Virus record (IMG/VR): IMGVR_UViG_3300042691_036093
Span: 1-20,987 of that record
From: a virus
Length of the DNA stretch: 20,987 nt
Direction: 5' to 3' (one strand)
Shown here: one piece after another, positions 14,000 through 20,266 of the stretch
How the letters are laid out: each line of letters opens with the position of its first letter
How positions within the stretch are numbered: position 1 is the first letter of the stretch
Notes under the pieces: generated by a model
Databases searched by the model: none
Told to the model about the DNA's origin: nothing
Seen by the model: only the letters and a program-made list of their open reading frames with translations
Translations under genes and position numbers: made by a program

Positions 14000-15367
14000 A
14001 TGAACAGTTTAGTTATCTTTGATTTGGATGGTGTCCTAATCGACAGTAAAGATTATCATTATGAAGCATTAAATCAAGCACTTGGAAATGAGTATGCTAT
14101 CGGTAGAGAAGAACATGTAAGCATTTATGATGGTCTTCCCACAAAAGCAAAATTAGAACTTTTAACCAAGAATAAAGGTCTTCCCGTAGATCTTTATGAT
14201 AAAATTTGGAGAGAAAAGCAAGAAGCAACTCTCAAAATCTTTAATGACTGCGTTGCAAAAGATTATGAGTTGATGGGATATTTCCAACAACTTGTAGATG
14301 CTGGATATAAGATTGCTGTTGCATCTAACAGTATTCGTAATACTGTAAAGATTATTCTCTTACGTCTTGGGCTTCTGGAATTTATTGATATGTACGTCTC
14401 CAATGAAGACGTTGTTCGCAATAAACCATTCCCAGCAATGTATTGGAAGTGTATGACTGCTTTAGGTGCTCTTCCAGCAGACACTGTAATTGTTGAGGAC
14501 AGTCATATTGGTAGACAGGGAGCATTGGATAGTAAAGCGCACCTTGTTCCAGTGGAGAATAGAAAAGATTTAAATCAAGAAAAGATTAATAGGATTAAAA
14601 AGATTCTTAATGGCAAAAAACAAAAGGTTGCATGGGAGAGCAAAACTATGAATGTTCTGATCCCTATGGCAGGTGCTGGCAGTAGATTTGCTAGCCAGGG
14701 ATACACCTTCCCCAAACCTCTGATTGAAGTTAGAGGTAAACCAATGATCCAAGTAGTGGTTGAGAATCTAAACATTAAAGCAAACTATACTTTTATTGTT
14801 CAAAAGGAACACTATGAAAAGTATAATTTAAATTATCTTCTTCCACTGATTGCTCCTAATTGCAACATTGTTCAAGTAGATGGCATTACTGAAGGTGCTG
14901 CTTGTACTACTCTCTTAGCTAAACAGTTTATTGATAATGATGAACCTCTTGTAATGGCAAACTCAGATCAGTTTGTTGTTTGGGATTCAAATGAAACTCT
15001 TTATGCTTTTCAGAATGGAGAATGTGATGGAGGTATCCTGACATTCCCTGCAACTCATCCCAAGTGGTCCTATGCTAAACTTGGTGAAGATGGATATGTT
15101 GAAGAGGTTGCTGAGAAGAAGCCAATTTCAGAACATGCAACTGTTGGAATTTATTATTGGAAGAAAGGTTCTGACTATGTTAAGTATGCAGAACAAATGA
15201 TTAAAAAAGATATTAGAGTCAATAATGAGTTCTATGTTTGTCCTGTATTCAATGAAGCAATTTCTGATGGAAAGAAAATCAGAATTAAAGAAATAGAGAA
15301 AGATGGAATGTGGGGAATTGGAACACCCGAAGATCTAAACTATTTTTTGGAGAACTACAAAGAATGA
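14000..15367 (+). CDS. Bifunctional HAD hydrolase-sugar nucleotidyltransferase fusion
   Basis: The 455-residue protein joins two domains. Residues 1-190 are a HAD phosphatase of the beta-phosphoglucomutase group: DLDGVLIDS (8-16), ASNS (108-111), NKPFP (141-145) and VEDSHIG (165-171). Residues 217-455 are a nucleotidyltransferase: IPMAGAGSRF (221-230), FPKPLIEV (237-244), ANSDQ (320-324) and WGIGTPEDL (438-446). The fusion could remove a phosphate in one step and activate another sugar phosphate with NTP, or the domains may act on unrelated substrates. An internal ATG at 14648 preceded by GGGAGAG (14634-14640) could give the second domain alone. The gene is less AT-rich than its upstream neighbours. 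Substrates are not predictable. Confidence 0.88.
   Translation: MNSLVIFDLDGVLIDSKDYHYEALNQALGNEYAIGREEHVSIYDGLPTKAKLELLTKNKGLPVDLYDKIWREKQEATLKIFNDCVAKDYELMGYFQQLVDAGYKIAVASNSIRNTVKIILLRLGLLEFIDMYVSNEDVVRNKPFPAMYWKCMTALGALPADTVIVEDSHIGRQGALDSKAHLVPVENRKDLNQEKINRIKKILNGKKQKVAWESKTMNVLIPMAGAGSRFASQGYTFPKPLIEVRGKPMIQVVVENLNIKANYTFIVQKEHYEKYNLNYLLPLIAPNCNIVQVDGITEGAACTTLLAKQFIDNDEPLVMANSDQFVVWDSNETLYAFQNGECDGGILTFPATHPKWSYAKLGEDGYVEEVAEKKPISEHATVGIYYWKKGSDYVKYAEQMIKKDIRVNNEFYVCPVFNEAISDGKKIRIKEIEKDGMWGIGTPEDLNYFLENYKE
14634..14650 (+). promoter_or_regulatory. Possible internal translation start of the nucleotidyltransferase domain
   Basis: GGGAGAG (14634-14640) ends 7 bases before ATG 14648, which is exactly the first codon of the second domain (MNVLIPMAG). 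This suggests either a separate product or the remnant of two formerly separate genes. Confidence 0.4.
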
Positions 15368-18360: not shown

Positions 18361-19061
18361 ATTTATTGATAGAATATTTTAGATCCCCTGATTATCAGAG
18401 GCATAGTGAATATCTTACTTGTATTCACGAGAATTTGGAAAATGAGTACATTGATAAAGTTTATATTTTTATATCAGATGATGCAAAGTTAAATTTTCAA
18501 TCTGATAAAATAGAAATCATTCAAAGGGAAGAACGACCAACATATAAAGATCTTTTTGAATTTTGTAATGAAAATCTAAAAGATCAAATTTGTATTATTG
18601 CAAATGCTGATATTATTCTTGATGAAACTTTATCTGCAGTTAAAGAAACTAATTTAGATAATATTTTTGTTGCTTTAACACGATGGGAAGTATTTTGCCA
18701 AAATGGTGAGTGGTGTATTGCTCCATTTGATAATTCTTCTTCCCAAGATGTTTGGATATTTACTTCACCAATTAAAACAACTGATGAGATGGAATTTACT
18801 TTAGGTAAACCTGGATGTGATAATAAAATTGCTAAATTGATGGCAGAACAGGGATACATTTTAAAAAATCCAGGAAAACAAATAGTATGTGCTCATTATC
18901 ATATTTCTGGACATAGAAATTATAATAATGGTGATAGAATTCCTGGTCCATATACTTGCTTAGTGCCAAATAATGATATTAATACAGAAACACAACTTAT
19001 TGAAATTGATGGTTTTGATGAACAAGGACGAGCATACATTATACAGAAGGAAAGATCATAA
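18357..19061 (+). CDS. Putative GT-A-like glycosyltransferase, family not recognised
   Basis: The 234-residue protein begins MNLLIEYFRSPDYQRHSEYL. CIIANADIILD (79-89) carries a DxD-like acidic site (ADIILD) in a hydrophobic strand, as in GT-A enzymes. SQDVWIF (129-135), GKPGCDNKIA (150-159) and AHYHISGHRNY (179-189) follow, a set typical of small virus- and cyanobacteria-borne transferase-like proteins. It lies between the epimerase and the sugar dehydrogenase. The catalytic role is inferred only. Confidence 0.6.
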   Translation: MNLLIEYFRSPDYQRHSEYLTCIHENLENEYIDKVYIFISDDAKLNFQSDKIEIIQREERPTYKDLFEFCNENLKDQICIIANADIILDETLSAVKETNLDNIFVALTRWEVFCQNGEWCIAPFDNSSSQDVWIFTSPIKTTDEMEFTLGKPGCDNKIAKLMAEQGYILKNPGKQIVCAHYHISGHRNYNNGDRIPGPYTCLVPNNDINTETQLIEIDGFDEQGRAYIIQKERS

Positions 19062-19861
19062 TGAAAGTTGGAATAATCGGAAATGGATTTGTTGGTAATG
19101 CCATATACCAAAATCTAAAAAATAAGATTCAAAATTTATTTGTTTTTGATGTTGATGAAAACAAATCTTTAAATTCTTATGATGAAACTATAAATTCAGA
19201 TATTGTTTTTGTTTGTCTTCCAACACCAATGAAAAATAAAATGGGTGGAGGGTGTAATTTATCTTATATTGAATCATTTTTTGATACTCTTCCTAAAAAT
19301 CTATCTGGAATTTTTGTTATAAAATCTACTGTTCCTATTGGAACTACCGAGGAATTGAGTGAAAAAAGATTAGATCTAAAAATAATTCATAATCCAGAAT
19401 TCTTAACTGCCAGAAATTCTGTAGAAGATTTTAATAATGCTGATAGAAATATTATTGGTGGAGAAAAAGAATCATCTCAAAAACTAGAAAATTTTTATTT
19501 AAACTATTTTCCTCATATCAAAACTATTTTAGTTTCTTCTGAAGAATCTGAATCAATAAAATACTTTTCTAACACATATCTTTCAATGAAAGTTACTTAT
19601 TTTAATTTAATGTTTGATTTATGTGACAAACTTGGAATTGATTTTGAAAAAGTTAGAAGTGGTGTTTGTTTGGATAAAAGGATTGGTGAATCTCATAGTT
19701 TGGTTCCGGGTATTGATGGAGACAGGGGATTTGGTGGAACTTGTTTTCCGAAAGATTTAAATGCTCTTAATGAAACTTTTAATGATAACGATTTGAATAG
19801 TTCTATATTTTCTGAGATTTGGAATTATAACATTAAGATTAGAAAAAATATTGATTGGTGA
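19061..19861 (+). CDS. Short UDP-glucose/GDP-mannose 6-dehydrogenase-like protein
   Basis: The 266-residue protein has the NAD motif GNGFVG (7-12), CLPTP (52-56), KSTVPIGTT (88-96), NPEFL (111-115), a Lys-Asn pair (Lys167, Asn171) and GFGGTCFPKD (223-232) with the catalytic Cys228. It thus keeps the residues needed to oxidise C6 of a nucleotide hexose to the acid. The C-terminal UDP-binding domain of normal enzymes (total about 390-440 residues) is missing: the protein ends about 34 residues after the catalytic loop. It may be a natural short form or rely on a partner. The start shares one base with the previous stop (TAATG). Confidence 0.85.
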   Translation: MKVGIIGNGFVGNAIYQNLKNKIQNLFVFDVDENKSLNSYDETINSDIVFVCLPTPMKNKMGGGCNLSYIESFFDTLPKNLSGIFVIKSTVPIGTTEELSEKRLDLKIIHNPEFLTARNSVEDFNNADRNIIGGEKESSQKLENFYLNYFPHIKTILVSSEESESIKYFSNTYLSMKVTYFNLMFDLCDKLGIDFEKVRSGVCLDKRIGESHSLVPGIDGDRGFGGTCFPKDLNALNETFNDNDLNSSIFSEIWNYNIKIRKNIDW

Positions 19862-19906: not shown

Positions 19907-19934
19907 AGAGGGGCTTGACCCCTCTTTATTTTTG
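19907..19934 (+). terminator. Rho-independent terminator closing the glycan island
   Basis: AGAGGGG (19907-19913) pairs with CCCCTCT (19919-19925) around the loop CTTGA, followed by a T-rich tail (TTATTTTTG). It lies 45 bases after the dehydrogenase stop. Its 3' half overlaps the -35 box of the hli promoter. Confidence 0.85.
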
Positions 19935-19943
19935 CTATATACT
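19915..19943 (+). promoter_or_regulatory. Sigma70-type promoter of the hli operon
   Basis: TTGACC (19915-19920, 5 of 6) is followed by a 17-base spacer and TATACT (19938-19943, 5 of 6). The predicted transcript start near 19950 is about 20 bases before the hli ATG at 19971. The -35 box lies in the loop and 3' arm of the terminator hairpin. Confidence 0.75.
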
Positions 19944-19970
19944 TTTGTAATGTTTCTTAACAAAACTTAT

Positions 19971-20180
19971 ATGACTGTAACAACCAATGAACGTGGTCAG
20001 CAAAATATGTGGGCAATTGAACCCCCTGTTTATATTTCTGACGAAGATGCTATCAAATATGGAATGAAGACTTATGCTGAACGTGCAGAACTTGCCAATG
20101 GACGCTGGGCAATGGTCGGTTTTGTTGCTGGTATCATTTCTTATGCTAGCACTGGCAACTTCTTCTTCGGAGTCTTCTGA
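19971..20180 (+). CDS. hli: High-light-inducible chlorophyll a/b-binding-like protein
   Basis: From ATG 19971 the protein has 69 residues. ELANGRWAMVGF (40-51) is the chlorophyll-binding signature of Hli/Scp proteins (Glu40, Asn43, Arg45), within one transmembrane helix (about 44-62) ending in FFFGVF. It would protect photosystems in the thylakoid membrane during infection, a role well known for cyanophage Hli proteins. A longer frame from 19851 or 19950 is unlikely: the first lies upstream of the terminator and promoter, the second coincides with the predicted transcript start. No Shine-Dalgarno is evident. Confidence 0.92.
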   Translation: MTVTTNERGQQNMWAIEPPVYISDEDAIKYGMKTYAERAELANGRWAMVGFVAGIISYASTGNFFFGVF

Positions 20181-20266
20181 TGACTGAAGTAATCTTCACA
20201 CTCACTGCAGTTGCCTTTTTCGTACTTTTGGGTTATGCTGTAGAGAAAGTCGCAGAAACTTACTGA
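20180..20266 (+). CDS. Membrane microprotein (28 aa) downstream of hli
   Basis: The peptide begins MTEVIFTLTAVAFFVLLGYA and ends EKVAETY. It has one hydrophobic helix with a charged tail, similar in size to small photosystem or cytochrome b6f subunits, but I cannot match it to any of them. Its ATG overlaps the hli stop (TGATG) and its stop overlaps the next ATG, so coupled translation is likely. Confidence 0.6.
   Translation: MTEVIFTLTAVAFFVLLGYAVEKVAETY

Follow-up and report, generated by a model that had tools for sequence, protein, structure and literature searches.

Rho-independent terminators end a transcription unit with a G+C-rich hairpin and a T tract. In E. coli, the neighbouring frd and ampC units share regulatory DNA, terminator included, and the hairpin that they share acts as an attenuator, located downstream of the ampC promoter. 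Cyanomyovirus promoters of the host sigma-70 type have the layout TTGAC(A)-17-TATAAT. PMC5780444, citing Doron et al. 2016, reports that T4-type middle promoters are absent from marine T4-like cyanophages, as are motA and asiA. In bacteria, promoters can lie near terminators, where a retained polymerase could restart (PMC11347151, PMC6978380); the distances range up to ~1 kb, with no fixed register.

The phage element that we describe here has the hairpin and T tract of a Rho-independent terminator and the layout of a cyanomyovirus sigma-70 promoter. Unlike ordinary terminators, it contains the -35 box of the following promoter in its loop and 3' arm, and unlike ordinary cyanomyovirus promoters, its -35 box sits in a terminator and its spacer is the T tract. 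As in the bacterial cases, a retained polymerase could restart there, but in the phage element the terminator and the promoter share bases. In comparison with frd/ampC, the phage hairpin precedes the start site and has the -35 box inside it. We found no description of this overlap design in the open-access literature that we searched, and we provisionally regard it as undescribed, within the limits of that literature.

The window, which is the whole stretch of DNA that we analyzed, is a virus record of 20,987 bases. Its genes and nearest relatives point to T4-like cyanophages, and judging from them it is a fragment of such a phage. By BLAST, its hli region is matched by 365 phage records, nearly all from Synechococcus or Prochlorococcus phages. 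The gene hli03 (19971-20180, + strand) encodes a high light inducible protein of 69 amino acids, which we identified by alignment with 12 phage Hli proteins; it also has a weak match to the Pfam family Chloroa_b-bind (E = 0.0002, just below the cut-off). The start codon is most likely the ATG at 19971, and an alternative ATG at 19950 falls where transcription of the hli unit is predicted to start. Cyanomyoviruses carry hli03 as a core gene, and clusters of LPS genes adjoin it in S-SSM7, S-SM2, and P-SSM2 (PMC3037559). In the window, it follows a glycan island of 17.8 kb, whose last gene (19061-19861, + strand, 266 amino acids) belongs to the UDP-glucose/GDP-mannose dehydrogenase family (PF03721 and PF00984). 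Elsewhere on the + strand, positions 554-2053 encode a full-length cyanobacterial-type porin, here in a phage contig, with SLH and OprB domains (Pfam E = 1e-7 and 6e-17, respectively), and positions 14000-15367 encode a single protein in which a HAD-type hydrolase is joined to a nucleotidyltransferase domain.

The element lies between the glycan island and hli03, on the + strand. The hairpin (19907-19925) has a 5' arm of AGAGGGG (19907-19913), a loop of CTTGA (19914-19918), and a 3' arm of CCCCTCT (19919-19925). Its stem of 7 bp includes 5 G-C pairs, and together with the loop of just 5 bases it has the G+C-rich stem and short loop of an intrinsic terminator; the RNA is predicted to fold with about -12 kcal/mol (z = -2.3). 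The T tract TTATTTTTG (19926-19934) directly abuts the stem, as in intrinsic terminators, and also serves as the promoter's spacer. Because transcripts usually end 7-9 nt past the stem, we expect the 3' end of the island's RNA at ~19931-19934. The -35 box TTGACC (19915-19920) is split: TTGA is in the loop, and CC is the beginning of the 3' arm. After a spacer of 17 comes the -10 box TATACT (19938-19943). Each hexamer is one base off the consensus, so the promoter scores 10/12, with the 16-18 spacing of sigma-70 promoters, and from the position of the -10 box we predict that transcription of the hli unit starts at approximately 19950. An earlier note on this DNA had reported the hairpin, the -35 box within it, and the 17-base spacing, and all of these are exact in the sequence.

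Within the window, promoter-like sites are no more frequent than expected (12 vs. 10.7), so the promoter by itself is not above chance, while terminator-like sites are moderately above chance (4 vs. 1.1 expected). The significance of the promoter and the hairpin comes from the comparison across loci, not from the window alone. A search of the window against Rfam gave no match at the gathering thresholds. We also considered an attenuator or riboswitch and rejected it, as the hairpin is upstream of the predicted start and holds the -35 box, instead of lying in the transcribed leader.

To see how these features vary, we compared 93 regions upstream of hli03 (88 of them unique): 80 loci from IMG/VR, 12 phages, and the window. 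The IMG/VR loci are the top-ranked 80 among at least 565, and they are related to each other. Terminators and promoters were called by consensus, with at least 10/12 matches for a promoter. In this sample of top-ranked loci, phages, and the window, 80 of the 88 unique regions have a near-consensus promoter, and the spacer is exactly 17 in 77 of those 80. Both TTGAC and the -10 box are conserved. Many of the BLAST matches to relatives start at the hairpin or within a few bases of it. Also, S-SKS1 has a nearly identical hairpin and promoter but a different gene upstream, which implies that the element belongs to hli rather than to the island.

The hairpin is genuine, though not always present. 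We examined 78 distinct hli03 promoters for a hairpin around TTGA, which we required to have a stem of 6 bp or longer and 4 or more G-C pairs. The -35 box is inside such a terminator-type hairpin in 29 of the 78 (from the same sample of top-ranked loci, phages, and the window), as compared to 6.7 ± 2.0 if arms are swapped between loci (maximum 14 in 500 trials) and 1.9 ± 1.3 if the letters are shuffled. So, as in intrinsic terminators, pairing is kept while the sequence of the arms changes: the pairs include AGAGGGG/CCCCTCT, AGCACCTC/GGGGTGCT, CTCCCCC/GGGGGA, and AGGACCTC/GAGGTCCT. The predicted folding energies range from -9.0 to -16.9 kcal/mol. Could the inverted repeat be an operator that binds a protein, rather than a terminator? 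It is palindromic and overlaps the -35 box, as an operator might. However, the 29 hairpins have 17 distinct 8-base 5' arms, and such wide variation with pairing maintained argues against a conserved operator. Furthermore, spacers are richer in T if the hairpin is present (8.4 vs. 5.6 T in 13 nt), which a terminator needs and an operator does not. We consider an operator to be extremely improbable.

The hairpin is missing from ~60% of the hli03 promoters, including that of Syn9. Just 1 of the 29 promoters with the hairpin also has a separate terminator in the 250 bases upstream, as compared to 13 of the 49 others (Fisher p = 0.013), so the two arrangements tend to be alternatives. This tendency supports the compact insulation between the two units that the earlier note had suggested, as does the way in which the two arms covary while the -35 box stays fixed. 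About 36 of the promoters lack both the loop hairpin and a separate terminator at our thresholds, and termination right before hli03 is probably common, not universal, in this data set. Two hli loci (L150 and L162) have a variant with a -35 of TTGTTT in the 3' arm of a terminator. Position 6 of the -35 box is something other than A in 9 of the 29 promoters with the hairpin and in 6 of the 49 others (p = 0.07), which is only suggestive of an excess.

We also scanned ten complete cyanomyoviruses, with 217 strong intrinsic terminators, for -10 boxes (at least 5/6 matches), with distances measured from the last G-C pair. A -10 box starts 8-17 bases past the stem for 69 of the 217 terminators, as compared to 18.5 ± 4.0 in dinucleotide shuffles and 16.0 for other offsets. 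In 27 cases, the box is exactly TATAAT (vs. 1.8 ± 1.2 in the shuffles). The -10 boxes peak at +11, with 24 sites (vs. ~1.6 per offset), and 22 of these remain without the hli sites, so the peak was not produced by choosing phages via the hli region. Among individual genomes, the excess is clear in S-SKS1, a close relative (16/26), and P-SSM2 (8/19), weak in Syn9 (4/20 vs. 1.8 ± 1.3), and absent from S-SZBM1 (2/24). Fused sites lie, for instance, between gp46 and a peptidase gene, before cobS, after gp23, after psbA in S-RIM32, and at both ends of the glycan island of S-SKS1. The form with TTGA in the loop accounts for 14 of the 69 fused sites, and most of the others have a -10 box with a weak or no -35 box; in 15 of the 55 sites without TTGA in the loop, TGn precedes the -10. 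Late promoters appear to be fused to terminators as well: of 18 late-promoter cores (TATAAAT) within 25 nt past a terminator in the ten cyanomyoviruses (L040-L136), 12 are at exactly +7. By these sequence comparisons, the fused stop-start design is found across cyanomyovirus genomes. The earlier note had taken the element to be local; the overlap is indeed there, but it is not confined to the window.

A chance overlap of a terminator with a promoter-like string in AT-rich DNA would fit the number of promoter-like sites in the window. But besides the shuffles and the other offsets, there is no comparable excess of -10 boxes past terminators on the opposite strand. There is also none in T4, which has similar G+C (4/27 vs. 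3.5 ± 1.7), where the TATAAAT core is at +9 or +10 in 3 of 27 cases. Four stretches of host DNA gave 0/26, 0/16, 0/40, and 1/31. Because -10 boxes are rare in G+C-rich hosts, which makes them weak controls, we added two hosts of 35-42% G+C; the first two stretches are from AT-richer genomes (0/42 together). Given these controls, chance is a very improbable explanation. We also asked if the fused form has a host origin. In 61 genomes from the host family, the pattern GGGG..TTGAC..CCCC is not above the reversed control, although this pattern also overlooks the form in the window itself, where the C of TTGAC is paired. A host origin is unsupported.

The element is probably a bifunctional terminator-promoter: within ~40 bp, it would end the glycan island and begin hli. 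The RNA from the island would fold the AGAGGGG/CCCCTCT hairpin and be released in the T tract, ~5 bases ahead of the -10 box. As a duplex, the same DNA would be a host-type sigma-70 promoter with its -35 box in the loop and the T tract as its spacer; the -10 box comes right after the T tract, and the hli03 RNA would begin at ~19950. Because the RNA hairpin and the duplex promoter are different molecules, they can share bases, though not at the same instant. Also, the only other strong terminator on the + strand is upstream of the island (2074-2100; 11 bp with 6 G-C pairs), and between 2100 and 19907 this strand has none comparable in strength to the hairpin at 19907-19925. So transcription of the island, wherever it began, would run into hli, which again favors insulation. 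We infer that termination and initiation both take place here and that the reason for the arrangement is to shield the core hli unit from variable upstream genes.

Alternatively, the element might couple the two units rather than insulate them: after releasing the island's RNA, the polymerase would stay over the hli promoter, take up sigma, and restart. After intrinsic termination, RNA polymerase from E. coli often remains bound to the DNA, and it can start again at nearby promoters (PMC6978380; PMC6978322; PMC11347151), and the fixed register of the -10 box at +11 is compatible with this. However, compactness alone also explains the short distance, and one-dimensional diffusion needs no overlap, so we think that hand-over is unlikely. 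Another alternative, which we consider improbable, is that polymerases pausing and terminating on the promoter block initiation, so that hli would be low while the island is transcribed. The footprint of RNA polymerase is large enough that, with a predicted 3' end ~5 bases before the -10 box, terminating and promoter-bound polymerases would overlap. On the other hand, the conserved near-consensus promoters suggest selection for strong hli output.

Shielding by a bifunctional terminator-promoter hints at how the core photoprotection genes may lie next to hypervariable glycan genes whose transcription would otherwise swamp them. The design also provides a simple rule for reading the ends and starts of transcription units from the sequence of very abundant ocean viruses. 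More speculatively, there may be a modular switch across the genome: many terminators would be the next promoter in a fixed register, passing the same host polymerase from operon to operon, with a late version in which the T tract has become part of TATAAAT at +7. We hold this only tentatively; if it is true, then the order of operons would itself help to set expression. These elements are also natural templates for asking whether a polymerase restarts on the promoter where it has terminated or obstructs it.

Cyanophage-like Hli proteins (50-62% identity) are also found on contigs that are filed as non-cyanobacteria: a Rhodobacteraceae MAG (L221), a Crocinitomicaceae MAG (L222), and Nonlabens (L223). 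Perhaps these are phage contigs that were wrongly binned. Finally, directly after hli03 (20180-20266, + strand), the window encodes a conserved, mostly unannotated microprotein of 28 amino acids, MTEVIFTLTAVAFFVLLGYAVEKVAETY, which is likely to have a single membrane span. It has only one weak match in PHROGs. It occupies this position in most hli loci, and 151 phage records match it by tblastn. Across 42 distinct ORFs, the entropy by codon position is 0.78/0.36/1.27, and the ratio of nonsynonymous to synonymous changes is ~0.14.
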